In this document: piece after piece, positions 18,264 to 29,389 of the stretch | Numbering within the stretch: position 1 is the first letter of the stretch | How the letters are laid out: each line of letters begins with the position of its first letter | From: Streptomyces albidochromogenes | GTDB lineage: Bacteria > Actinomycetota > Actinomycetes > Streptomycetales > Streptomycetaceae | NCBI RefSeq assembly: GCF_005981925.1 | Contig: NZ_VBVX01000022.1 | Location: forward strand, 1-38,104 | Direction: 5' to 3' | Length of the DNA stretch: 38,104 nt | The notes under the pieces: model-generated | Told to the model about the DNA's origin: nothing | Database searches by the model: none | What the model saw: only the letters and a program-made list of their open reading frames with translations | Position numbers and translations under genes: made by a program

Positions 18264-19052
18264 TCAGGGGGAGCGGTGCAGCAGCCCGCTCATGGTGATG
18301 CGGTCGCCCCGGAAGCGGATGAACTCGAGGTCCACCGGACGCCCGTCGCGCAGGTGCGTGAGCCGCTCCAGCATGAGCACGGCCGCGCCGCGCGGGGCCT
18401 CCAGCACGGCGGCGGAGTGCGCGTCCGCGTTGACCGCTTCGAGGGTGATGTCGGCCGTGCCGAGCGGTTGCCCGCTGAGCCGCTCGATGAGCCGGAACAC
18501 GTCGTTGTGCTCCAGGTCGCAGGTGAGCAGGCCGGCACCGATGTCCATCGGGATGTAGGTCAGGTCGAGCGAGAGGGGGAGGCCCCCCAGCCTGCGCAGC
18601 CGCTCGACGCAGAGCACGTCGGCGTGTTCGGGAAGCCCCAGCCGCCGCGCGACCGGGGCGGGAGCGGAGACCGGCCCGGCCGTACGCACCTCGTTGGTCA
18701 CCTCGCCGTGTTCGCGCAGGGTCTCGGCGAGCCCCTGGAGCCGGTCGAGGCCGTGCGGGTACTTCTCGGCCACCAGGACCGTCCCCACGCCCGGCTGACG
18801 TTCCACGAGTCCTTCCGTACGCAGCAGGTCCAGGGCCTGGCGCACGGTGTTGCGGGACACGCCGTAGTCCGCGCCGATCCTGCCCTCCAGAGGCAGGACA
18901 CCGCCGGGGAATCCGGTGGTGCGCGCCTGGTGCCGCAGCAGGTCGGCCAGCTGACGGGCACGGTCCGCGCGCAGTCGCCGGCGCGCGGCGGCTGCCTGAA
19001 GAGGGGGCGCGGCGTGCTCACGGATGCGTTCGGCTGGCATGCGCTGGACCAT
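18264..19052 (-). CDS. GntR family regulator with UTRA effector domain (HutC type)
   Basis: The protein has about 262 residues from the ATG at 19052, with the ATG at 19040 as alternative; neither has a clear ribosome-binding site. The winged helix-turn-helix spans roughly residues 40-110: LPLEGRIGADYGVSRNTVRQ, LDLLRTEGLVERQPGVGTVL. The C-terminal half is a UTRA domain (VSAPAPVARRLG, LCVERLRRLGGLPLSLDLTYIP, SAAVLEAPRGAAVLMLERLTH, DLEFIRFRGDRITM), which in HutC-type regulators binds a small effector. It is the first gene of the ferredoxin/ABC/flavoprotein operon and probably its regulator. A 5-bp-armed inverted repeat overlaps its start codon and is a likely autoregulatory operator. Confidence 0.88.
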   Translation of the reverse strand: MVQRMPAERIREHAAPPLQAAAARRRLRADRARQLADLLRHQARTTGFPGGVLPLEGRIGADYGVSRNTVRQALDLLRTEGLVERQPGVGTVLVAEKYPHGLDRLQGLAETLREHGEVTNEVRTAGPVSAPAPVARRLGLPEHADVLCVERLRRLGGLPLSLDLTYIPMDIGAGLLTCDLEHNDVFRLIERLSGQPLGTADITLEAVNADAHSAAVLEAPRGAAVLMLERLTHLRDGRPVDLEFIRFRGDRITMSGLLHRSP

Positions 19053-19064
19053 ACCGACCGTATG
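19050..19064. promoter_or_regulatory. Inverted repeat CATAC-N5-GTATG over the gntR start, candidate operator
   Basis: CATAC (19050-19054) and GTATG (19060-19064) are exact reverse complements around CGACC. The repeat covers the gntR initiation codon and the bases just upstream, so binding there would block transcription or initiation of the operon. Such a short symmetric site is in line with GntR-family operators. Confidence 0.5.
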
Positions 19065-19179
19065 CGCCCCGTGGTGTTGCGGCAGTATTGCGCCACCTAC
19101 CGCACTGACCGAACCCGCTGTGACCTGCGGTTTCTTCAAGGCCGACGGAAGATCTGCCACACCGGGCGGCCCGGTCGCG

Positions 19180-19965
19180 TCAGCACGGCTGCCGCCACAC
19201 CCCCAGGTCCAGCTTCTTGCGCATCGAACTGAACCCGAGCTTTCGCGCACGCGCGCAGAAGTCGCCCACCGCGACGGCGTACTCGACGTGCAGGACCGCC
19301 TTGCCCGCCTTCACGAAGGGCGTGAGGGCCGCGCATTCGCCGTACTGCGCGCACTCCTCGTTCACCGCGAAGTCGAAGTCCCCGACCAGGGAGGGGATCT
19401 GCGGCAGGTCGTTCTTCAGGCCCACCGACATGCCCCGCGCGTGCGCGAGGCCGGCGAGCATGCGGTTGTACGCGAGCTGGTCGGCGGCGGTCAGGGGGAA
19501 GCCCGTGTCGTTGAGGTAGCCGTCCATCAGATCCGGCTCGACCGCGTCGAAGCCCTTGTCCCGGCACATGTCGAACCGCTCGGCCATCAGCGGGCGCAGG
19601 ACGTCCAGTCGGCGGATGTCGAGCCAGCGTTCGCCGCCCCACCCGTTGCCGCGGCCCAGGACGGCGGCCGGGAAGTCCCGCCGGTCGGGACGGAACGACT
19701 CCCACGCGCCGGCGTTGATGTAGCAGATGACCCTGCGGCCGTCGCGGTGCAGCCGGCGCACCGTACGCGCGTCGTTCTCGAATCCGTCGATGTCGTAGAC
19801 GGGCACGTCGACCCGGCCGTCGACATGCCCGTCCAGCTGCCACTGCCAGGCCGTGCCGACCGCCGGCCGCCACGGCCGCACGGGGGACGGCTCGGGACCG
19901 GGCGACGAACAGGCCGCCAGCAGGGCCAGCAGGCACAGCAGCCACAGCGGGCGCACGCGGGTCAT
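19180..19965 (-). CDS. GH114 endo-alpha-1,4-polygalactosaminidase-like lipoprotein
   Basis: The protein has 261 residues. A lipoprotein signal precedes lipobox LAAC with Cys19. The TIM-barrel domain matches GH114 (fungal Ega3, PelA N-terminal hydrolase): VYDIDGFENDA, VICYINAGAWESFRPD (residues 79-94), FDAVEPDLMDGY with Asp145 and the NEECAQYGEC block with Glu203/Glu204, which are the expected catalytic acid positions of the family. These enzymes cut alpha-1,4-linked galactosamine polymers. It is the last gene of the polysaccharide operon; its ATG overlaps the spherulin gene stop as ATGA (19962-19965). It is likely to trim or release the polymer made by the operon, at the outer face of the membrane. 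Confidence 0.87.
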   Translation of the reverse strand: MTRVRPLWLLCLLALLAACSSPGPEPSPVRPWRPAVGTAWQWQLDGHVDGRVDVPVYDIDGFENDARTVRRLHRDGRRVICYINAGAWESFRPDRRDFPAAVLGRGNGWGGERWLDIRRLDVLRPLMAERFDMCRDKGFDAVEPDLMDGYLNDTGFPLTAADQLAYNRMLAGLAHARGMSVGLKNDLPQIPSLVGDFDFAVNEECAQYGECAALTPFVKAGKAVLHVEYAVAVGDFCARARKLGFSSMRKKLDLGVWRQPC

Positions 19966-20660
19966 GAAGCCTTCCGGTGCAGTACGGGCGGCAGGAGCGA
20001 CCAGGGGTTCGGGCCGTGACCCGGCACCGCGCAGTGCACGGCGGCGCGGCGCAGCGCGGCTGTCCGGGCGGCCAGCGCGCACAGTCCGGCCGGCACGCCG
20101 TGGACGAGGTGGCAGAACCGTTCCGGCGGGTGGGCCGCGGTCCAGGCGGGGGCCGCGGGCGCCGCCGAGTACGCGGCCCAGTCGCCCTCGAAGGTGACCA
20201 GCAGATCGGCGACCGCCGCGTAGCCCGGGGCCGGGTGGACACCCGGGTTGAGGACGACCGTACGGCCTCCCCTGGAGCGCGCCGCCCGGGCGAGGCGCCG
20301 GTAGTGGCGCACCGCCCCGGACGCGCAGGCGGCCTGGTCCAGGAAGAAGCCGTCGGTGGCGTACCAGTCGCGGTACCGGTCGAAGTCGGCCGCGACCGTA
20401 CGCAGCGGCCGCCGGCCGTAGTCGGTGTCCACGTACCCGAGCAGCGGCACCCCCGCCGCCCGCAGAGCGCGGGCGGCGGCGGTGAAGGACGGCTCCGGCG
20501 CGTGGCCGGGGCCGTCCGCGACGTTGAGCACCACGCCGTACAGCAGGGGCGCGGACTCGACGAGCGCCCACCAGGCGCCGGGGTCGACGGCAGGGTGCAC
20601 GTACATCGGCACGAGCAGCTTCGCCGGCGGTACGCACCCCGGCTCGGGCCGCACGCTCAC
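19962..20660 (-). CDS. Spherulin-4 / GH135-like glycoside hydrolase
   Basis: The protein has about 232 residues from the GTG at 20660, which overlaps the upstream epimerase stop as GTGA. Spherulin-4 family marks are LLVPMYVHPAVDPGAWW (residues 15-31), VVLNVADGPGHAPEPSF (43-59), LLGYVDTDYGRRP (73-85), DGFFLDQ (103-109), VVLNPGVHP (135-143) and LVTFEGDW (154-161). The fungal member Sph3 (GH135) cleaves N-acetylgalactosamine-rich galactosaminogalactan. The acidic pair of Sph3 (DE) reads DQ here (Asp108-Gln109), while the later Glu158 is kept. No signal peptide is visible, unlike the neighbouring GH114 protein, so it may be cytoplasmic or exported by another route. Confidence 0.83.
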   Translation of the reverse strand: MSVRPEPGCVPPAKLLVPMYVHPAVDPGAWWALVESAPLLYGVVLNVADGPGHAPEPSFTAAARALRAAGVPLLGYVDTDYGRRPLRTVAADFDRYRDWYATDGFFLDQAACASGAVRHYRRLARAARSRGGRTVVLNPGVHPAPGYAAVADLLVTFEGDWAAYSAAPAAPAWTAAHPPERFCHLVHGVPAGLCALAARTAALRRAAVHCAVPGHGPNPWSLLPPVLHRKAS

Positions 20661-21562
20661 CGGGCCGCCGGGGCCGGGGTCCCGGCCGGGCCCGCCCGCC
20701 ACAGGTCGGACAGCGAGTCGGCGAGCACCCGCCCCGGCTCCCAGCCGAGCGCGGCCCGCGCCGCCGTGATGTCCGCGCACTGCCAGGAGACCGCGGACGA
20801 ACGGGCCGAACCGCTGCTCGTCTCCTCGACGCGGCCGGCGAACCCGGCGGCCCGCACCAGCCCGTCGGCGATCTCGCGGACCACGGTGGCCCGGCCGCTG
20901 CCGATGTTGAGCACGTCCGGCAGCGGCCCGGGAGCCGTCGCCGCCAGGACGGCGGCCCGCGCCACGTCCCGTACGTCCACGAAATCGCGGTACGCCGACA
21001 GGTCGCCGACCCGGACGGTCCCCGACTTCCGGGCCCGGCGCAGTTCTCCGGCGAGCCGTCCGGGCAGCCCGGCGGCCGGCGCGCCAGGTCCGACCGGGTT
21101 GAACACCCGCAGGACGACGGCGTCGAGACCGGCGGCCCTCACGGCCGCCGTGCCGGCGAGCTTCGTCGCCCCGTACGGGCCCTGGGGGCGGGTCGGCGCG
21201 TCCTCGGCGACGGCTTCGCCGGGCGCGGTCGGGCCGTACTCGGCCGCCGAGCCGAGGTGGACGAGGCGCGCTCCGGGCGCCGCCGCGCCCATCGCCTCGC
21301 AGAGCGCCGCCGGCCCGCGGGCGTTGACGTCGGTCATGCGGACCGCGCTGCCCGTCACCAGGCCCGCGCAGTTGACGACGACGTCGGGCGCCGCCGTGCG
21401 CAGCGCGTCCGCGAGGACGTCGGGGCCGGCGGTCAGATCGAGCGGCACACCGGCGGCCGGTGACCGGCCGCCGACGAGCAGCCGCACGCCCGGAAGGGCG
21501 CGCAGCTGCTCGGCGGTGTGCCCGCCCAGGAACCCGGTGGAGCCGAGGACGAGAACACGCAT
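20657..21562 (-). CDS. NAD-dependent epimerase/reductase (SDR, extended type)
   Basis: The protein has 301 residues. The Rossmann motif GSTGFLGG (G7-x-x-G10-x-x-G13) binds NAD(P). The catalytic triad region has HLGSAAEYG and YGATK (Tyr and Lys). The extended-SDR C-terminal block reads RDFVDVRDVARA. It probably acts on a nucleotide sugar as a C4-epimerase or a 4-keto reductase; the sequence does not tell which. The ATG at 21562 is preferred; a GTG at 21577 overlaps the upstream nucleotidyltransferase stop and is possible. It sits between nucleotidyltransferase and spherulin genes, with both junctions overlapping or nearly so. Confidence 0.87.
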   Translation of the reverse strand: MRVLVLGSTGFLGGHTAEQLRALPGVRLLVGGRSPAAGVPLDLTAGPDVLADALRTAAPDVVVNCAGLVTGSAVRMTDVNARGPAALCEAMGAAAPGARLVHLGSAAEYGPTAPGEAVAEDAPTRPQGPYGATKLAGTAAVRAAGLDAVVLRVFNPVGPGAPAAGLPGRLAGELRRARKSGTVRVGDLSAYRDFVDVRDVARAAVLAATAPGPLPDVLNIGSGRATVVREIADGLVRAAGFAGRVEETSSGSARSSAVSWQCADITAARAALGWEPGRVLADSLSDLWRAGPAGTPAPAAR

Positions 21563-21569
21563 GTGCCGC

Positions 21570-22283
21570 TCACGCACCCTTGAGGAGCAGGCCGCGGTGC
21601 GTGGTGAACTCCGCGTTGGCCCGGTCGTAGTCGTCGGGGCGGCCGATGTCGAGCCAGTAGCCGTCGAACTCGTAGGCGTGCGGGGGCTTCTCGGCGGCGA
21701 GCAGGTCCAGTACCAGTTCGTCGAAGCCGAGCGGCAGGCCCGGCGTGTACCCGGCGAGGGTCTCCCGGGAGAGTCCGTACACGCCCATGGAGACCCGGTA
21801 GTCCATGCTCGGCTTCTCCGCGAAGCCGGTGACCCGGCCCCCCTCGGTCGTCAGGACGCCGAAGTCGATGGCGACCTTGCGGGCGTACGTGGCGACGGTG
21901 AGCGGGGCCCCGGAGGCCCGGTGTGACCGGACGACCTCGCCGTAGTCGAGATCGGTGAGGATGTCGCCGTTCATCACCAGGAAGTCGTCCGGGAGCCTGT
22001 CCATCATGGTGAGCAGGGGGCCCATCGTGCCGAGCGGGCTGTCCTCGGTGGAGTACCCCACGCGCAGGCCCCACTGGGACCCGTTGCCGACGTACGCGCG
22101 GATGATGTGGCCCAGATGACCGATGGCTATCGTGCAGCTGGTGAAGCCGCTCGCGGCCAGCTGCCGGAGCACGATCTCCAGGATCGCGTGCTGGTCGCCG
22201 ATGGGCACGAGCGGCTTGGGAAGCGCCGTCGTGTACGGCCGCAGCCGAACGCCCTTGCCACCGGCGAGGATCACTGCATGCAT
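21570..22283 (-). CDS. Sugar-1-phosphate nucleotidyltransferase
   Basis: The protein has 237 residues. The N-terminal signature LAGGKGVRLRPYTTALPKPL (residues 6-25) binds NTP, with the catalytic Arg and the PKPLVPI Lys. MNGDILTDLDYGE supplies the metal-binding Asp, GFAEKP the second catalytic Lys region, and GYWLDIGRPDDY the family C-terminal block. It activates a sugar-1-phosphate to an NDP-sugar in the cytoplasm. Relatives act on glucose-, mannose- or heptose-1-phosphate, so the sugar is not certain. The ATG start lies 33 bases after the dehydratase stop. It feeds precursor to the 4,6-dehydratase and epimerase of the same operon. Confidence 0.9.
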   Translation of the reverse strand: MHAVILAGGKGVRLRPYTTALPKPLVPIGDQHAILEIVLRQLAASGFTSCTIAIGHLGHIIRAYVGNGSQWGLRVGYSTEDSPLGTMGPLLTMMDRLPDDFLVMNGDILTDLDYGEVVRSHRASGAPLTVATYARKVAIDFGVLTTEGGRVTGFAEKPSMDYRVSMGVYGLSRETLAGYTPGLPLGFDELVLDLLAAEKPPHAYEFDGYWLDIGRPDDYDRANAEFTTHRGLLLKGA

Positions 22284-22315
22284 GGAAGTCCCCTGTACGT
22301 CGCGTGCGGTCGTGG

Positions 22316-23323
22316 TCAGATGTTGTAGATGCCGGTCTTGTAGCGGGAGAGGTTGCCGGGGTCGCGGAAGAAGTCGATGGTGTGGCCGAGCCCCTCCTCC
22401 AGGCCGGCCAGAGGCTTCCAGCCGGTGGCGGTGCGCAGCCGCGTGGCGTCCGCGACCAGGCGCATCACCTCGGAGTTGGCGGGCCGGATGCGCTGTTCGT
22501 CCTCGCGCACGTCGAGATCGGCGTCCATCAGCTTGCCGATGAGCCGGGTGAGTTCGCCCACCGAGATCTCCCCGCCGGTGCCGGCGTTGAAGGTCCGCCC
22601 GACGACCGCCTCGGCGGGCGCGGTGCCGACGGCGAGGAAGGCGCGTGCGGTGTCCTTCACGTAGAGGAAGTCACGGGTGGGACGCAGGTCCCCGAGGGTG
22701 ATCGTCCGCTCGCCCGCGGCGACCTGGCCGATGACGGTCGGGATGACCGCCCGCATCGACTGGCGCGGCCCGAAGGTGTTGAAGGGGCGCAGGGTCACGA
22801 CGGGGGTGGCGAAGCTGGCGTGGTAGCTGTCGGCGAGCCGGTCGCCCCCCGCCTTCGACGCGGCGTACGGCGACTGGGTGCTGATCGGGTGGTCCTCGGT
22901 GATCGGCACGGTCTGCGCCGTGCCGTACGTCTCGCTCGTCGAGGTGTGCACGAGGCGCGGGGTGCCCTGCCGGCGCACCGCCTCCAGGACGTTGAGGGTG
23001 CCCGTGACGTTGGTGTCCACGTAACTGTGCGGGGCCTGGTAGGAGTACGGGATCGCGATGAGGGCGGCCAGGTGGTAGACGGCCTCGGCGCCTTCGATGA
23101 GCTGGTTGACCGAGCCCGGGTCGCGGACGTCGCCGAGGACGATCTCGACCTGGTCGAGCGTCTCGGCGGAGAGGGTCTCCAGCCACCCGTAGGAGGAGAA
23201 GGAGTTGTACTGCGCCATCGCGCGGACCCGGTGGCCGGCCGCGACGAGCGCCTCGGTGAGGTGGGAGCCGATGAAGCCCTCGGCGCCGGTGACGGCGACG
23301 AGTGACGGTGCTGGTGCGGTCAC
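22316..23323 (-). CDS. NDP-sugar 4,6-dehydratase, LegB-like extended SDR
   Basis: The protein has 335 residues. VTGAEGFIGSHLTEAL (residues 11-26) binds NAD. MAQYNSFSSYGWLE is characteristic of the LegB-like branch of UDP-GlcNAc 4,6-dehydratases. The active site has HTSTSETYGTAQ and YAASK, followed by RPFNTFGPRQSMRAVIPT and EQRIRPANSEV. Members convert an NDP-hexose to a 4-keto-6-deoxy sugar; a C4-epimerase role is a less likely alternative. In this operon it could make a 6-deoxy amino sugar as a second component of the polymer. The membrane-protein stop lies 48 bases downstream. The ATG start has the usual GAGGAG-like bases upstream. Confidence 0.87.
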   Translation of the reverse strand: MTAPAPSLVAVTGAEGFIGSHLTEALVAAGHRVRAMAQYNSFSSYGWLETLSAETLDQVEIVLGDVRDPGSVNQLIEGAEAVYHLAALIAIPYSYQAPHSYVDTNVTGTLNVLEAVRRQGTPRLVHTSTSETYGTAQTVPITEDHPISTQSPYAASKAGGDRLADSYHASFATPVVTLRPFNTFGPRQSMRAVIPTVIGQVAAGERTITLGDLRPTRDFLYVKDTARAFLAVGTAPAEAVVGRTFNAGTGGEISVGELTRLIGKLMDADLDVREDEQRIRPANSEVMRLVADATRLRTATGWKPLAGLEEGLGHTIDFFRDPGNLSRYKTGIYNI

Positions 23324-23371
23324 AGGGGTGCTCCTCTGTCGGTGACGGTGGTGCGGGAAGGTGAGCGGGGT

Positions 23372-24733
23372 TCAGCGGTGTGCCGTGGGCCGGCCGAGGA
23401 TCCGGCCGGCCAGGTACAGGAGGACGAGGGCCGCGACGGTGCGGCACAGCGGCTGCGCCAGACCGGTCGCCAGGCCCGCCGCCGGGGCGGCGGCCTCCGC
23501 CGCGGCCGCGGCCAGGCAGACCGCCGCGGGCGGCCAGGCCACCCCGAACGCCTGGAGGAGCAGAGCGGTCCACAGCACCGCCCCCAGGCCGAGCAGGGGG
23601 GCGGGGCCGGTCCCGGTGAGCAGGGCGCCGGCGGCCAGCAGGGCGGCGTACGCGCCCAGGCACACCGCCAGGGCGCGGGCTGCCCGCAGCCGGAAGTCAC
23701 GCGGCGCGGTGCTGGCGCGCAGGGCCGCCACGGCCAGGCCCCGGTAGCGGTAGAGCAGCCACTCGGCGAAGCCCATGCTGAGCGTGAGGACGACGACGGC
23801 GTACGGGTCCGCCGCCCCCGTGAGCATCGCGAGCACCCCGGCGGCGAGACCGAACAGCCCGTACGGCAGCGACACCAGCAGCCCCGGGGCCGCGCCGCCG
23901 GCCGCCGGGCCCGAGCGCAGCGCGGCCCGTACCCCGTGGGCGGCGGCGAGGATCGCGAGGACGACGGTGGCGAGCAGCGGGACCACCGCCGCGGCGGCCG
24001 GCGGCTGCCACCACAGCGTGGCGACGGCGCCCCCGGCCACCGGCAGCAGCGCCACCAGCAGCGTCCGTTCGCGGCCGAGGACCAGCAGTACGGTCGCCGC
24101 GCCCAGGTAGCAGGACTGCCCGGCGGCGAACGCGCCGGCCTGCCCCGGTCCCGCGAGGAGCAGCCCCGCGAGCGAGGCCGTCAGCGCCCCGGCGGGAGCG
24201 CCGAGCCGCAGCGTCCGCCCCGCGGCCGCCGCGCCGGCGGTGCCCAGCCTCAGGTAGGCGCGGTGGCTGAGCGCCTGGTTCCACGCCCAGGCCACCAGCC
24301 CTGCGGCCACCAGCGCGGTGACGGCCCCCTCGCCCCCCAGCAGCCCGGAGCCCAGGACGTAGGCCAGCCCCGGGAGCGCGAAGACCAGCCCGCGCACGGC
24401 GCACCGCAGGTGGTCGGGGCGCCAGGGATCGGCGGCCGGCGGCGGCTCGGGGTAGTGCCGGGGCACCCGGGCGTACAGGTCGGTGGCCAGCGCGAACAGG
24501 CCGGGACGGCCGTAGCGGGTACCGATCTGGTCGCCCGTCAGCCCGTCGGACTCCAGGAGCGCGGCGACCTCGTACGGGTGCACGGCGGCGGACACCGGCT
24601 CCATCAGCCGCTCGGCGAGCTCGTCGATCGGGTCGGCGGCCCAGCTCGGCCGCGCCCTGGGCCCGTTCCGCTGCCGGGGCAGGGCGGGCAGGCTGCCGCC
24701 CTCGCCCGGCAGCAGGCGCAGCGGGCCGCTCAT
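23372..24733 (-). CDS. 12-TM membrane protein of the polysaccharide operon (PelG-sized)
   Basis: The protein has 453 residues. The first ~105 residues are soluble and cytoplasmic (DPIDELAERLMEPVSAAVHP, then DLYARVPRHYPEPPPAADPW). About 12 hydrophobic segments follow, from LVFALPGLAYVLGSGLLGG to VAALVLLYLAGRILG. Length and helix count match PelG, the inner-membrane flippase-like partner of the Pel glycosyltransferase PelF (456 residues in Pseudomonas), but the PelG N-terminal signature GIGFELRKLL is not present. Its ATG overlaps the PelF-like stop as ATGA (24730-24733). I infer that it is the transport partner of the glycosyltransferase; by sequence alone I do not recognise the family. Confidence 0.75.
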   Translation of the reverse strand: MSGPLRLLPGEGGSLPALPRQRNGPRARPSWAADPIDELAERLMEPVSAAVHPYEVAALLESDGLTGDQIGTRYGRPGLFALATDLYARVPRHYPEPPPAADPWRPDHLRCAVRGLVFALPGLAYVLGSGLLGGEGAVTALVAAGLVAWAWNQALSHRAYLRLGTAGAAAAGRTLRLGAPAGALTASLAGLLLAGPGQAGAFAAGQSCYLGAATVLLVLGRERTLLVALLPVAGGAVATLWWQPPAAAAVVPLLATVVLAILAAAHGVRAALRSGPAAGGAAPGLLVSLPYGLFGLAAGVLAMLTGAADPYAVVVLTLSMGFAEWLLYRYRGLAVAALRASTAPRDFRLRAARALAVCLGAYAALLAAGALLTGTGPAPLLGLGAVLWTALLLQAFGVAWPPAAVCLAAAAAEAAAPAAGLATGLAQPLCRTVAALVLLYLAGRILGRPTAHR

Positions 24734-26235
24734 ACGAGGGCCCCGGCACGCCGCTCTTCATGCCACGCGGTCAGGTCCGCAACCCCGGCCGTCGCCCCGG
24801 CGGCCAGCTCGGTGTAGACGGACCGGAACGTGTCGATGGTCTGCCGGAGGGTGAACTGCTCGATGACCCGCAGCCGGGCGTCCCGCCCCATGGAGGCCCT
24901 GCGCTCCGGGTCGCGCAGGAGTTCCAGGGCGGCGCGGGCCATGGCCTCCGGTTCCCTCGGCGGCACGACGAGCCCGGTGTCGCCGACGGCCTCCCGCACG
25001 CCGCCGACGTCGGTGGAGACGGTGGCCCGCCCGCAGGACATGGCCTCGATGAGCGTGAACGGGAAGCCCTCGCTGATGCTGGACAGCATCACCGCGTTGC
25101 CCGCCGCGTAGGCGTCGCGAATGTCCTCGACCCGGCCCTCGAAGACCACGGCGTCCGCGTGTCCCAGCTCCGCCGCCAGCGCCTCGCAGCGCTGCCGGTA
25201 CGCCTCGCCGCCGCGCGGCGTGCCGCCGAACAGGCGCAGCCGCGCGTCCGGTATCTCCTTTCTGACCAGGGCGAAGGCTCTGATGAGGGTCTCCAGGTCC
25301 TTGATCGGGTCGACCCGGCCCGCCCAGCTGAGGGTGGGGACATCCGGCTCCGGCCCGGCGGCCGGGAAGGCCGCCGGATCGACGCCGTTGTAGACGGTGC
25401 GTATCAACTCGGGTGCCGCGCCGCCCTGTTCCTCCCAGAGCCGGTTGTAGCGGTTGCCCGGGGTGATCAGGTCCGCCGTGCGGTAGGTCTCCTCGGCGAG
25501 CAGCCGGAAGAACCCGAGGAGCAGCGCCTTGACCGGCCACCGGTAGGGGCCCGTGCGGTACCCGAGGTAGCGCTCGCGCAGGTAGACGCCGTGCTCGGTG
25601 AGCAGCAGCGGCACCCCGTGCAGCCGCCGCCCGACGAGTCCGGGCAGGACCGCGAGGCCGCCGCTCACCGCGTGGCAGACGCCGTGTTCGGGCGGTGCGG
25701 CGGCGAGCGGGCGCAGGGCGTGCTCCAGCAGATCGGTGGCGGTCAGGGCGTCGTGCAGGGTGGGCCGGGCCGCGTGCACCGGCAGGCCGGGGCGGCCCCA
25801 CACGGCGGCCAGGACGGCGACGGCCTGGTCCGTACGCAGGGCGGGTGCGAGCAGCCCGTCCCTGGCCGACCGGGCCAGTTCGTGCAGCGCGGCGCCGAAC
25901 TGGTCCTCGGCGCCGGGGTCGAGGAGCGCGGTCAGGAAGCGTTCGTACGCCGCCATCAGCTGCCTGCGTCGCCGGCCGCGCGGCGCCCTGCCGACCGGGT
26001 CGGGGCCCCACATGGGGACGGTGACCGGAGGCGCGACGTGGGACGGCAGCTCCCAGGCGAGCGGTTCCCGGCCGGTGCCGGTCACCGCGATCACGTGGAA
26101 GTCGAAGTCGGGCATTCCCTGGACGAGTTGGTCGCACCACACGCTGACGCCCCCGTGGCTGTGCGGATAGGTGCCTTCGGTGAGGAGGGTGACCCGGGCC
26201 GCGCCGGACTGCGGCACGCGGAGTGGATCGGGCAT
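24730..26235 (-). CDS. pelF: GT4 glycosyltransferase, PelF type
   Basis: The protein has 501 residues. The N-terminal Rossmann domain begins VTLLTEGTYPHSHGGVSVWC (residues 15-34), the hallmark of PelF (DUF3492) proteins, followed by a long insert. The mid-part has LLTEHGVYLRERYLGY, LITPGNRYNRLWEEQGG and RTVYNGVDP. The C-terminal domain has LSWAGRVDPIKDLETLIRAF and the retaining EX7E motif SEGFPFTLIEAM near residues 388-399, then STDVGGVREAV. PelF uses UDP-N-acetylgalactosamine or UDP-GlcNAc to polymerise Pel in the cytoplasm before export. Here it is probably the polymerase of a galactosamine-type polymer. It is the second gene of the operon, 70 bases downstream of the deacetylase-like gene. 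Confidence 0.9.
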   Translation of the reverse strand: MPDPLRVPQSGAARVTLLTEGTYPHSHGGVSVWCDQLVQGMPDFDFHVIAVTGTGREPLAWELPSHVAPPVTVPMWGPDPVGRAPRGRRRRQLMAAYERFLTALLDPGAEDQFGAALHELARSARDGLLAPALRTDQAVAVLAAVWGRPGLPVHAARPTLHDALTATDLLEHALRPLAAAPPEHGVCHAVSGGLAVLPGLVGRRLHGVPLLLTEHGVYLRERYLGYRTGPYRWPVKALLLGFFRLLAEETYRTADLITPGNRYNRLWEEQGGAAPELIRTVYNGVDPAAFPAAGPEPDVPTLSWAGRVDPIKDLETLIRAFALVRKEIPDARLRLFGGTPRGGEAYRQRCEALAAELGHADAVVFEGRVEDIRDAYAAGNAVMLSSISEGFPFTLIEAMSCGRATVSTDVGGVREAVGDTGLVVPPREPEAMARAALELLRDPERRASMGRDARLRVIEQFTLRQTIDTFRSVYTELAAGATAGVADLTAWHEERRAGALV

Positions 26236-26305
26236 GACGAGACGGTCCCCCGTGGAGATGCTGGCGGCCGGGCCGGCCGGAACGGTGCGGGCGGTCGGGC
26301 GCGGG

Positions 26306-28468
26306 TCAGCCGGTGACGCCGTACGGCACTCGCTGCCGCACCCCGGCCGGCACCGGAAGCCGGGGCCCGCCGCCCCGCACCGGGTCGGCCCGGTCCGCCG
26401 TCGCGGCCTGCGCCGTGGCGCCCGCGGGCAGGGTGAGCGTCACCCGGTCCTGGAGAAGCCCGGGGGAGACCCAGCCGGAGAGCGATCCGGCGTACGGGCT
26501 GCCGAAGGACTCGGTGCCGAGCAGCATGTTCTGCCGGGTGCCGGCCGGCAGGGTGGCGGAGGCGCGGACACCGCCCGGGGCCCGCACGGTGACGGTGTCG
26601 CCGATGCGGTACGCCGTCACCTGGCCGGCCTTGACAGCGGTGTTCCAGGCGGACCGGTCGCGCAGTTCCGCGCCGATCTGCTGCTGGCGGAGATTCACCA
26701 GCGGGGTGTCGGCGGCGTACAGCCCGGCGTACTCGTCGATCACGCGGTCGAGCACCGGGTAGGCGATGCGGTCCTCGGCGAGGTTGGACTGGTGGATGAA
26801 GTGCGGCCGCGGGTCGTTCGCGAGGACGTGGCCGAGCGCGATGCGGGCCTCCAGCGGCACGATGTGGTCGGCGTAACCGGTGACCGTGTCGAGCGGCTCC
26901 GGCAGGCAGGTGGTGCCGGCCGCGCTCTCGCACACGCCGCTGCCGCCGTCCGAGGCCCTGGTGTAGATCCAGTTGTACTCGTCGATCTGCTCGGTGGTGC
27001 GGCCCGCGTTGTAGAAGATGTTCATCGGGTAGCGCGGCACGGTGAGGGCCGGTCCGACCTTCCGCTGGGCGCGGTCGCGGGAGTTGTCCGAGCCGAGCCA
27101 GGTGACGGCGTTGTCGGCGAGGGCGGGCCCGAGGTTCGGGTTGTCGTCGGGCTGCTGCGGCAGGACCTTCAGACCGGAGTGCTCACCGGTCACCAGCTCG
27201 CCGGTCGCCAGCGGGAGTCCCGCGCGCTGCCCCCAGGCGCGGTTCTCCCTGATCTGGGTGGAGATCTCGGAGCGGCTGACGTACCTGGTGCTCCCGTCGG
27301 GGTTCCTGGCGCAGACCCAGGGGACGACCGAGACGTCCTGCACGCAGCCGAGGAAGGGATGGTTGTACGTGTGGTTGATCCACCGGTAGGCGTTCTTGTC
27401 GGCGGTCAGCCGCTGCGCCAGCGGGTCGGTGCCGCCATGCTCCTCCTTGTAGAGCTCGCTGCCGCCGCCGTTGTACGCCATGTCCAGGGTGAAGCCCTTG
27501 GCGGCCGACCACTCGGCCGCGTACCGCGCGTCGTCGGCCGTCATCCGGATCGGGTCCGGCTCACCGCCCTGGCCGGGCGCGCAGTCCACGTCGCCGGGGG
27601 TGCAGTTGAGCTCGGTGTCCCAGCGGTCGTCGGCGGCGAAGACGTCGTCGACGTGGACCGCGAAGTAGTTGCGGGAAGCGCCCAGCCGTACGCCCTGGGT
27701 CATCCAGTCCACGATGCCGCGGGCGAGGAGCCGGAACTGCTGCTGGTACTGGTTGTAGACGAAGCCGACGACCAGCTCGCGGCGGCCGTCGTGCCGGTAC
27801 TCGCCGACGAGGGAGCCCCGCTGCCCGGTGCCCGGCAGCGGCGCCTCGACGTAACTGGTGAAGTCGGCGCCCGGCAGCGGCTTGGCCGCGTAACCGTAAC
27901 TCTCGCTCACCGAGGGGGAGTTGTCCTCGAAGGGTATGCCGCCGTCGAGGTAGCCGAACGGGCCCGCCGCGCCGGCGGGCGTCACCTCGGCGCGCACCCC
28001 GTCCAGGGAGCCGCTGTAGCCGCCGTTGGCCGGGTGGTCGAGGCCGACCTCGGGCCGGGCGTACGTGTAGGCGTCCACCTGGGGGACGGCGAAGGTCTTC
28101 TCGTACGCGACGAGTGCCCCCATCTCGGCGGAACCGGCCCCGAACGGGTTGTCGTTGGGGAGTACCACGGCCTGGAACTTGGCCCGCTGACGCCCGTCGA
28201 CCGTGTCGGCGAGGTAGCCGCCGTTGATCACGGGTCGGTCCTGGCGGGTCAGGTCGAGGACGGTGTACGGCGTGCCCGCGCCGTCGAGTTCGGCGGCGAT
28301 CGCCGCGGTGGCGGGGCCTCCGTCGCTCACCACCAGTACGCGCAGGTCGACGCGTGGTGGCGCGGGCGCCGCGGCGGCCGCGTGCGCCGGCGCGAGGAGC
28401 GTCGTGGCCAGCGCGGCGGACAGCGTGGATATCACGGCCCACCGGGCCGTACGGCTTCTGAGGTGCAT
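26306..28468 (-). CDS. Secreted polysaccharide deacetylase-like protein (CE18/Agd3-PelA-like)
   Basis: The protein has 720 residues from the ATG at 28468, with a GGAAGG-type site upstream and a Sec signal peptide (TLSAALATTLLAPAHAAAAA). Residues ~40-250 form a Rossmann-like domain of unknown role. A deacetylase-like domain follows: FAVHVDDVFAADDRWD near residue 270 supplies the metal-binding Asp, FTLDMAYNGGG comes next, and HTYNHPF near residue 365 is the NodB-type H-x-x-x-H metal motif. A C-terminal beta-rich domain closes the protein (VTVRAPGGVRASATLPAGT, VTLTLPAGATAQ). The order agrees with fungal Agd3 (CE18), the galactosaminogalactan deacetylase, and the deacetylase part of PelA. It is the first gene of the operon, likely deacetylating the polymer outside the membrane. 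Confidence 0.75.
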   Translation of the reverse strand: MHLRSRTARWAVISTLSAALATTLLAPAHAAAAAPAPPRVDLRVLVVSDGGPATAAIAAELDGAGTPYTVLDLTRQDRPVINGGYLADTVDGRQRAKFQAVVLPNDNPFGAGSAEMGALVAYEKTFAVPQVDAYTYARPEVGLDHPANGGYSGSLDGVRAEVTPAGAAGPFGYLDGGIPFEDNSPSVSESYGYAAKPLPGADFTSYVEAPLPGTGQRGSLVGEYRHDGRRELVVGFVYNQYQQQFRLLARGIVDWMTQGVRLGASRNYFAVHVDDVFAADDRWDTELNCTPGDVDCAPGQGGEPDPIRMTADDARYAAEWSAAKGFTLDMAYNGGGSELYKEEHGGTDPLAQRLTADKNAYRWINHTYNHPFLGCVQDVSVVPWVCARNPDGSTRYVSRSEISTQIRENRAWGQRAGLPLATGELVTGEHSGLKVLPQQPDDNPNLGPALADNAVTWLGSDNSRDRAQRKVGPALTVPRYPMNIFYNAGRTTEQIDEYNWIYTRASDGGSGVCESAAGTTCLPEPLDTVTGYADHIVPLEARIALGHVLANDPRPHFIHQSNLAEDRIAYPVLDRVIDEYAGLYAADTPLVNLRQQQIGAELRDRSAWNTAVKAGQVTAYRIGDTVTVRAPGGVRASATLPAGTRQNMLLGTESFGSPYAGSLSGWVSPGLLQDRVTLTLPAGATAQAATADRADPVRGGGPRLPVPAGVRQRVPYGVTG

Positions 28469-28900
28469 GGGTCCCTTCCCGCAAAGGGCACGCCGGACAT
28501 GCGACCGGCGTGCCCCTCCCCCAGCGGAATGGGCGCCCGGACAGCCGCCGCGCGCTTCCCGCTCTGTCGGATCACATAGTGGGGTCATGCATGGAGAATT
28601 TGTGTGGGCGTCGTGAAACCTGGCGAGAAACACACCTGACCAGGCCGGGCCGGCGCACCTGCGGCCGAGTTTCCGCATCCCCCCGCGGCCTTCCTGGTGA
28701 CAGGTATTCCGCTTCTCCGCCACAGCTCACGGGTGCTGGGACACCTGTCGCCCTGACCGGCGCACTCACGTGGTCTGGACCACAGAAAGAGTTCCCGCAC
28801 CACTTATCGAATTCGGCCACGCGGGCGGAACCGGAGCCACCTGGAACGGTCGTGCGCCGGCGCCCTGCCGATCCCCGTACCAGCGCCTACGATCTGCTCC
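28469..28900. other. Divergent intergenic region with repeated ACCTG/CAGGT elements
   Basis: No gene is supported here; the longest open frames lack ribosome-binding sites and family motifs. The region must hold the promoter of the eight-gene polysaccharide operon (-) and that of the leaderless isochorismatase-fold gene (+). Related elements recur: ACCTGACCAGG (28634-28644), GGTGACAGGT (28696-28705) and ACCTGTCGCC (28743-28752); the last two form a nine-of-ten inverted match. They may be regulator sites. Confidence 0.45.
28888..28893 (+). promoter_or_regulatory. -10 box for a leaderless isochorismatase-fold transcript
   Basis: TACGAT matches TANNNT and ends seven bases before the GTG at 28901, with no ribosome-binding site in between. 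This supports a leaderless mRNA and fixes the start. No convincing -35 hexamer is seen. Confidence 0.55.
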
Positions 28901-29389
28901 GTGACCTCAGCTCTGATCCTGATCGACCTGATGCCGCGCATCGTCGCGCTGCCCGTCGCCCCGCACACCGGCGAGGAGGTGGTGGAGCGCTGCCGCCGCC
29001 TCGCCGGGGCGTTCCGGGCGAACGGCCGCCCCGTGGTGCCGGTCCGGGTGGAACGGCCCGGCGTCGCCGAGCAGCCGCCCGGCAGCGGTTTCGTCGACGG
29101 TCTGGTGCTGCCCGGCGACCTCGTGGTCGTCAAGCACACCGTCGGGGCGTTCCACGGCACCGGCCTGGACGACCGGCTGCGCCGCCACGGCGTCGACACG
29201 GTGGTGCTCGCCGGCCTGGTGACCACCATGGGGGTGGAGTCCACCGCGCGGGCCGCGAGCGACCACGGCTACGACGTGGAGTTCGTCGCCGACGCGATGT
29301 CGGGATTCGCCGCCGACGAGCACGACTTCGCCGTCGAGCGGGTCTTCCCCCGGTTCGGCGCGGTGCGTCGTACGGCGGACTACACCTGA
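28901..29389 (+). CDS. Isochorismatase-fold hydrolase lacking the catalytic cysteine
   Basis: The protein has 162 residues and the three-layer fold of isochorismatase/cysteine hydrolases: ALILIDLM with Asp9, PVVPVRVERPG, VVVKHTVGAFHGTGLDDRLR with Lys78, and LAGLVTTMGVESTARAASDH near 103-122. In true cysteine hydrolases the loop reads as T-x-x-C-V before the last helix; here Gly111 takes the Cys position, as in the known GVESTARAA branch. The Asp-Lys-Cys triad is therefore incomplete and a Cys-dependent amidase or isochorismatase reaction is unlikely. It is divergent from the polysaccharide operon and convergent with the SfnB-like gene. The start GTG is set by a leaderless promoter. Confidence 0.85.
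   Translation: MTSALILIDLMPRIVALPVAPHTGEEVVERCRRLAGAFRANGRPVVPVRVERPGVAEQPPGSGFVDGLVLPGDLVVVKHTVGAFHGTGLDDRLRRHGVDTVVLAGLVTTMGVESTARAASDHGYDVEFVADAMSGFAADEHDFAVERVFPRFGAVRRTADYT

Follow-up and report, generated by a model that had tools for sequence, protein, structure and literature searches.

The window analysed here, a stretch of 38,104 nucleotides from Streptomyces albidochromogenes (contig NZ_VBVX01000022.1), contains on its minus strand a run of eight genes, 19180-28468, which combines a polysaccharide deacetylase, a PelF-type glycosyltransferase, a polytopic membrane protein and two glycosidases with three enzymes of nucleotide-sugar metabolism, here called the triad. On balance, we consider it somewhat probable that this operon makes an alpha-linked amino-sugar polymer of the Pel/galactosaminogalactan class which is secreted and partly N-deacetylated, with a 6-deoxy sugar made by the triad and with a spherulin-4 protein that stays in the cytoplasm. 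The protein families, folds and motifs, the order of the genes and their co-conservation are observed; the substrates, the 6-deoxy product, the identity of the polymer and the place where spherulin-4 acts are inferred. The genus, and this genome itself, hold three such cassettes, which we name A (the operon in the window), B and C. Type B consists of CE18-GT4-TM12, followed by spherulin-4 and GH114 in most loci, and no triad genes are found within the fetched stretches of type-B operons. Type C consists of GT4-TM12-SDR-spherulin-4.

In the direction of transcription (28468 down to 19180), the eight genes encode a CE18 deacetylase, a GT4 glycosyltransferase, the membrane protein TM12, a 4,6-dehydratase, a nucleotidyltransferase, an extended short-chain dehydrogenase/reductase (SDR), a spherulin-4 protein and a GH114 lipoprotein. 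All junctions overlap or leave at most 70 bases. The gaps are 70 bases between CE18 and GT4, 48 between TM12 and the dehydratase, and 32 between the dehydratase and the nucleotidyltransferase; GT4-TM12, SDR-spherulin-4 and spherulin-4-GH114 each overlap by 4 bases, with the spherulin-4 start (GTG 20660) overlapping the SDR stop. The SDR may start at GTG 21577, giving an 8-base overlap with the nucleotidyltransferase, or at ATG 21562, giving a 7-base gap. The tightly packed eight-gene operon proposed in an earlier note on this DNA, made from the letters alone, is confirmed in both coordinates and junctions. A simple filter on GC by codon position passes five of the eight genes; the SDR, spherulin-4 and GH114 frames as listed fail it, and their calls rest on homology. 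For the fungal galactosaminogalactan cluster, we use what we take to be the names of its genes (Agd3, Sph3, Ega3, Uge3).

The likeness to this fungal cluster is already published. Bamford et al. (2020, PMC7229062) describe bacterial agd3 operons in which a glycosyltransferase and a membrane protein occur with GH114 and, for some Actinobacteria, also with spherulin-4, and the window shares all of these together with CE18. In their tree, agd3 lies in or near carbohydrate-active enzyme operons in 30 of the 35 bacterial species, all operons they identified contain a cytoplasmic glycosyltransferase and a multi-span protein, GH114 is highly consistent, and a gene transfer from bacteria to fungi is supported. 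The fungal analogy drawn in the earlier note holds for CE18, GH135, GH114 and GT4, but not as a novelty. With the fungal cluster (Aspergillus, Neurospora), the operon shares homologues of the GT4-type synthase and of the GH135, GH114 and CE18 enzymes. Where the fungal cluster has its C4-epimerase, the operon seems to have a nucleotidyltransferase, a 4,6-dehydratase and a reductase-like SDR instead; it also has a MOP-fold membrane protein as a separate gene and a spherulin-4 without a recognisable secretion signal.

The added value relative to the literature lies in the triad, the apparently cytosolic spherulin-4, the family of three cassettes and a ninth gene, N9. The sections of PMC7229062 on bacterial operons mention neither the dehydratase-nucleotidyltransferase-SDR triad nor two paralogous operon types in Streptomyces or a core cassette, and no published description of the triad was found in the literature searched (open-licence PMC). 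Dissecting a CE18/GH135/GH114 operon in a culturable Streptomyces would offer a genetically simple way to study how Sph3-type enzymes serve synthesis and the bacterial origin proposed for the fungal cluster, and might lead to a new amino-sugar polymer.

Deacetylase, glycosyltransferase and membrane protein

The first gene (26306..28468) encodes a protein with a signal-peptide-like start and an N-terminal CBM87-like domain. It is assigned to CE18 as an Agd3-type polysaccharide N-deacetylase, which may act on an alpha-1,4-linked N-acetylgalactosamine (GalNAc) polymer. A profile of 25 relatives has a sole PDB match at 0.01, Agd3 (6nwz, E 1.5e-26), spanning one N-terminal and one C-terminal stretch. 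The AlphaFold2 model (predicted local distance difference test, pLDDT, 86.9) also finds 6nwz as its best Foldseek match (E 8.1e-31, template modelling scores 0.64/0.69), followed by the heparan sulfate N-deacetylase NDST1 and then PelA, and it aligns to 6nwz across 767 alignment columns, i.e., over the three-domain architecture of Agd3. Single-sequence phmmer of the window protein against the PDB gives no match, and the protein alone has no Pfam match at 0.01, neither to Agd3_CE nor to CBM87_Agd3; among the 25 alignment members, Agd3_CE is found in 16 and CBM87_Agd3 in 7.

The catalytic motifs CM1 (DD), CM2 (HxxxH) and CM4 (H) are present as D274/D275, H366/H370 and H559. The VHVDD and HTYNHP-type motifs (H-T-Y-N-H in the window protein), from which the earlier note had recognised the deacetylase, are indeed there and are kept in most aligned relatives. 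By pattern, 118 of the 132 long-hit rows carry the full set (DD, NHT..H, HQSNL), three rows lack the metal ligands and eleven have variant or undetected motifs; in this and the following pattern counts, some genomes occur twice. Outside the cell, CE18 would deacetylate the polymer and make it cationic and sticky; cationic galactosamine polymers are the biofilm glue of Aspergillus and Pseudomonas. The catalytic roles of the Agd3 residues matched by D274, D275, H366, H370 and H559 are named in PMC7229062.

The second gene (24730..26235) encodes a DUF3492 + GT4 protein (Pfam DUF3492 1.8e-59), which reaches 169.1 bits against the PelF model NCBIfam NF038011 (cut-off 100), in agreement with the earlier assignment. 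This PelF-type GT4 would polymerise an amino sugar in the cytoplasm, and TM12 (23372..24733), which occupies a PelG-like position, would carry the polymer across the membrane as a flippase or exporter. The AlphaFold2 model of TM12 (pLDDT 91.4) has the MOP/MATE fold: in Foldseek, MATE proteins come first, then WzxE and MurJ, with a best E of just 2.7e-3, and VIA-align gives Z 21.5 to MATE1 and 15.1 to WzxE and MurJ. The window TM12 has no Pfam match at 0.01, and none of the 33 TM12 alignment members (the window protein and 32 relatives) matches Pfam PelG at 0.1. From the model, TM12 is tied to the MOP/MATE superfamily by fold only. A conserved small helical N-terminal domain of TM12, at about residues 35-90 (HPxEVAALLESDGLT...RYG) and without a Pfam match in the window protein, precedes the MOP fold.

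The Gram-positive pelDEADAFG operons, which also occur in actinobacteria and carry PelD and PelE (PMC7112168), share a PelF-type GT4 adjoining a polytopic membrane protein, plus a deacetylase, with the window. Compared with the genes described there, the window has CE18 and GH114 instead of PelD, PelE and a PelA-type deacetylase; Pfam finds none of these three among the eight operon genes and nine window neighbours, the part of the genome that this search covered.

The sugar triad

The 4,6-dehydratase (22316..23323) is LegB-like and has the motif STSETYG, in which T-S-E aligns with the T-D-E of the TDP-glucose 4,6-dehydratase 1r66 (presumably DesIV). Of 134 rows, 131 match the pattern STSE.YG. 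The nucleotidyltransferase (21570..22283) is an NTP_transferase-type sugar-1-phosphate nucleotidyltransferase (Pfam PF00483, 2.3e-39), and its nearest PDB relative is a mannose-1-phosphate guanyltransferase beta (4.1e-30).

The third member, the extended SDR (20657..21577), is best read as an NDP-4-keto-6-deoxy-hexose C4 reductase. A family profile of 17 rows scores 202 bits against 2pk3, a GDP-6-deoxy-D-lyxo-4-hexulose reductase, 167 against 6x3b and 132 against 6wjb; one of these rows (L124) is reductase-like and another (L118) is divergent, and without these two the scores are 136.7, 105.8 and 100.6 bits. We take 6wjb, labelled in the database as an epimerase/dehydratase family protein, to be PelX, a UDP-N-acetylglucosamine (UDP-GlcNAc) C4-epimerase, and 6dnt presumably is a UDP-GlcNAc epimerase. 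The SDR has the residues R38, S110, Y135 and K139. At the cofactor site, Arg38 aligns with an Arg of 2pk3 and 6wjb has Asp, where Arg is NADP-type and Asp NAD-type. Of 117 type-A rows, 114 have this Arg (two have Pro and one a gap), and the Ser-Tyr-Lys triad is not evident in two.

As the SDR family fits GDP-4-keto-6-deoxyhexose reductases better than C4-epimerases, the three sugar genes may together lead to a nucleotide 6-deoxy-sugar. To our knowledge, the supply of UDP-GalNAc needs no 4,6-dehydratase, so that another sugar is implied. From the sequences we favour a nucleotide 6-deoxy-sugar, and not UDP-GalNAc, as the product of the triad, though not as a settled matter. The nucleotidyltransferase, the LegB-like dehydratase and the reductase-like SDR would then yield a 6-deoxy (amino) sugar in nucleotide-activated form, with GDP or UDP as its probable carrier, and this sugar would enter or decorate the polymer. 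The earlier note had taken the SDR for an analogue of the fungal C4-epimerase Uge3 and the sugar genes for the operon's own supply of nucleotide sugar for galactosamine; both claims are left in doubt, the first by the reductase-leaning profile and the Arg where 6wjb has Asp, the second by the dehydratase. We know of no further nonulosonic acid synthesis enzymes in the operon. A LegB-like dehydratase, a reductase-like SDR and a sugar-1-phosphate nucleotidyltransferase are shared with LegB and the GDP-4-keto-6-deoxyhexose reductases as described (2pk3, 6x3b; the substrate of LegB is GDP-GlcNAc, PMC7439481), but the operon, unlike the LegB pathway, is built round CE18 and GT4.

Several points weigh against a 6-deoxy product. 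The dehydratase reaches 450.3 bits against TIGR04180 (LegB), just below the curated cut-off of 475. Single-sequence phmmer of the SDR against the PDB ranks 6wjb first (1.1e-23) and the reductase 2pk3 after it (1e-20), and a profile of the eight type-A rows alone gives 102.9 bits to 2pk3, 93.3 to 6wjb and 74.1 to 6x3b, i.e., 2pk3 leads 6wjb by just 9.6 bits and 6x3b falls behind. An SDR tied to the dehydratase also fits poorly with type C, which keeps the SDR without the dehydratase and nucleotidyltransferase, and with the distant locus L137, where the nucleotidyltransferase and SDR are accompanied by a nucleotide-sugar dehydrogenase and another, different SDR. Finally, the operon holds one glycosyltransferase only. 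The nucleotide-binding region of GT4 is nearly unchanged between types A and B, so the donor of GT4 may be the same in both, and the 6-deoxy sugar would then call for a second transferase or serve in a side role.

The phmmer ranking and the SDR of type C would suit an ordinary galactosaminogalactan- or Pel-type locus, in which the SDR is a Uge3- or PelX-like C4-epimerase that supplies UDP-GalNAc, a precursor that the other two enzymes would boost as well; galE-like genes do lie beside Gram-positive pel loci (PMC7112168). We regard such a locus as unlikely, although not as far-fetched: the SDR profile without L118 and L124 prefers 2pk3 over 6wjb by 36 bits, the cofactor-site Arg differs from the Asp of 6wjb, the T-S-E dehydratase would have no role in the supply of UDP-GalNAc, and no triad gene is found in the fetched stretches of type-B operons.

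In favour of the 6-deoxy reading, the unrelated polysaccharide cluster L124 also combines a nucleotidyltransferase and a LegB-like dehydratase with an adjoining SDR whose motifs, read by eye, are reductase-like.

Spherulin-4 and GH114

The spherulin-4 protein (19962..20660) is a Sph3-like GH135 hydrolase (Pfam Spherulin4 8.7e-36). An Asp and a Glu, presumably the catalytic residues, align with those of 5d6t, and both GH135 motifs are found by pattern in 116 of 141 hits. The family profile matches 5d6t at 2e-30 and 5c5g, which is Sph3 (PMC12054363), at 5.7e-30, so the GH135 assignment anticipated in the earlier note is borne out. The family domain begins about 15 residues past the start, an unproven one, and by eye no hydrophobic stretch lies between. 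In two other loci (L054 and L065), the domain lies within a few residues of the start, and the distant spherulin-4 proteins of L138 and L139 do carry a signal-like stretch. Judged by its start, the window protein is apparently cytosolic, and we suggest that the hydrolase would act from the cytoplasm, in synthesis or quality control. A role in trimming the secreted polymer, as first proposed, finds no support in a protein in which no signal peptide is seen.

The last gene (19180..19965) encodes an Ega3-like endo-alpha-1,4-galactosaminidase-type protein of GH114 (Pfam 5e-85), a family treated with GH191 in PMC12054363. The best PDB match is the endo alpha-1,4 polygalactosaminidase 6oj1 (1.2e-58). 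We take 6oj1 to be Ega3. Both the DPD..D.Y and NE.C neighbourhoods are present in 84 of 89 hits. A lipobox-like LLAAC can be read in the sequence of the protein, which is predicted to be a lipoprotein and hence surface-tethered, as the earlier note had it, and it would cut deacetylated stretches of the polymer.

Three cassettes in Streptomyces

Three matches to the PelF model exceed the cut-off in this genome, one per cassette; the type-C match passes only with frame neighbours counted (100.7). The type-B operon of this genome is split across contigs, with CE18 on C302 and the remainder on C148, and type-B-like CE18 genes without GT4 occur in two further loci (L055, L063). In this genome, type C lies on contig C241 (L261:9465-13718, minus strand), and it is also seen at L262:5994-11037. 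Its SDR is present in 95 of 101 Streptomyces genomes, which makes cassette C core to Streptomyces; in all six rows compared, the catalytic-site Ser of this SDR is Cys. Type C adjoins a gene that, by eye, resembles MoeZ/ThiF.

In the midpoint-rooted GT4 tree, A and B are sisters (support 100/99 for B, 88/91 for A and 93/91 for A+B), C adjoins A+B, and two distant loci, L137 and L267, fall outside with long branches. The whole triad is found in L267, the nucleotidyltransferase and SDR in L137 and the SDR only in C. Since these three hold triad genes, loss of the triad in type B is the simpler story, with transfer as the alternative. It can be speculated further that type A makes a new cationic polymer of the Pel/galactosaminogalactan class containing a 6-deoxy amino sugar, made from a GDP- or UDP-linked N-acetylhexosamine (HexNAc) through a 4-keto-6-deoxy intermediate and a reductase, that the cytoplasmic GH135 is part of the synthase, and that A, B and C form one Streptomyces synthase family with an ancestral triad that was lost in B. 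This fuller picture is tentative, and we would sooner doubt it than adopt it.

The two GT4 types give no clear answer about donor specificity. Of 244 positions conserved in both types, 224 are identical and 20 differ; the phosphate-binding and E-x7-E region is almost unchanged, and the small consistent differences include S26 and V32 beside the GGVS loop, T339 and T394. These differences, the single glycosyltransferase of the operon, and a triad which is constant in type-A loci and not found in the fetched stretches of type B could mean that the 6-deoxy sugar is itself polymerised: GT4-A would make a poly-6-deoxy-HexNAc (a 6-deoxy Pel), which CE18 deacetylates and the hydrolases cut. The near identity of the nucleotide-binding region in A and B argues against this, as does the fact that CE18, GH135 and GH114 mostly retain the motifs used on GalNAc/GalN polymers, and we think it quite improbable.

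The distant CE18 operon L137 (L137:8978-19267) encodes GT4, TM12, the nucleotidyltransferase and the SDR, followed by the nucleotide-sugar dehydrogenase and the different SDR. A further protein encoded there is Pfam-silent and looks by eye like a possible TIM-barrel hydrolase; the stretch gives no match to a LegB-like dehydratase, to spherulin-4 or to GH114.

Conservation of the type-A operon

A scan of named genomes gives 498 CE18 relatives, of which the best 80 were kept, a set biased to type A and to close relatives. In eleven of the 80 loci, the sequence ends within 5.9 kb of CE18 on its downstream side. In all 69 untruncated ones, CE18-GT4-TM12-dehydratase-nucleotidyltransferase-SDR lie in this order on one strand; spherulin-4 is present in 64 of them and GH114 in 54. 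The closest named relative among those listed is Streptomyces chryseus (CE18 97%). Laboratory strains that carry the type-A operon include SirexAA-E (L186) and S. lavendulae CCM 3239 (L193). The earlier note had asked whether the operon is conserved as a unit, and the CE18-to-SDR order of these close relatives answers that it is; neither of the outcomes it had named beforehand as refuting, families outside CE18 and GH135 or an operon that is not conserved, occurred.

Of 150 Streptomyces genomes, 34 carry the dehydratase at E <= 1e-150, and every one of these also belongs to the 68 genomes in which CE18 is matched (hypergeometric 5e-15, ignoring shared ancestry; the two lists were compared assuming identical genome labels). 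Of the type-A operons inspected, four have a missing or decayed type-A CE18. Two of these genomes (G095 and G124) have the dehydratase and a CE18 of type B, with type-A CE18 absent beside the operon, and two (G016 and G069) have type-A CE18 in fragments only, G069 having also lost other operon genes. In G118, several type-A operon genes are in broken pieces.

At greater distance, the actinobacterium L267 has relatives of CE18 (41% identity), GT4 (48%), the dehydratase (64%), the nucleotidyltransferase (68%), the SDR (45%) and spherulin-4 (34%), together with a TM12 that is 33% identical over half its length and two GH114 genes, in a different gene order.

In 59 type-A neighbourhoods, no family occurs in more than nine, besides operon genes, antisense frames and N9, by a crude gene caller that missed some operon genes. 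Conserved clusters of minus-strand open reading frames in these neighbourhoods are taken as antisense open frames. The scarcity of shared families argues, weakly, against a wall-bound Streptomyces glycopolymer as the product in place of free matrix, with CE18 and GH114 remodelling wall-attached chains: among these families, the smaller of which are unannotated, no ligase or lipid-carrier enzyme accompanies the operon. Such a wall polymer would agree with the predicted surface tethering of GH114, with a related type C that is core to the genus (SDR 95 of 101) and with the galactosamine polysaccharides contained in Streptomyces walls (PMC7229062), and yet we give it little credence next to a secreted polymer. 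In liquid culture, Streptomyces depends on surface glycans to form pellets (PMC5972031). Glycans of MatAB/CslA are also reported from Streptomyces.

N9, the ninth gene, encodes about 175 residues with a signal-peptide-like start and conserved Cys, and lies upstream of CE18 in 55 of the 80 named loci. Copies recovered by neighbourhood gene clustering are L186:8983-9504, L203:9073-9600 and L154:8959-9486, all on the plus strand; those scanned have no Pfam or NCBIfam match. N9 is not matched in 19 type-B loci, of which some include little DNA upstream, and a search of this genome, run without a positive control, gave no match either.

Surroundings of the operon and CE18 paralogues

A perfect 11-bp hairpin lies at 28486-28515, 17 bases upstream of the CE18 start. 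As a conserved element it was rejected: only 22 of the 80 named loci show any repeat with a stem of 9 bp in the 330 bases before the CE18 match, mostly elsewhere. A scan of 18950-28950 gave no sigma-70-like promoter or terminator, and Streptomyces promoters are poorly covered by such a scan.

An internal stop that seemed to mark CE18 paralogues (one stop in most type-B matches) proved to be the search reading through past a natural stop; type-B CE18 proteins terminate earlier, judged from protein ends and the alignment rather than row by row. Other CE18 paralogues, 47-49% identical, have lost the metal ligands (DG, NGT..R) and are probably non-catalytic relatives: L070:5116-7101, L071:5085-7070 and L278:17516-19501, where the L070 and L278 entries represent a single gene from one genome. 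No GT4 lies beside them within the fetched stretches.

By Pfam, the nine window neighbours scanned have functions other than those of the operon: on one side a GntR/UTRA regulator, a ferredoxin, parts of an NMT1-type ABC transporter and a 2-oxoglutarate-Fe(II) oxygenase, and on the other an isochorismatase, an acyl-CoA dehydrogenase and an Rrf2 regulator.

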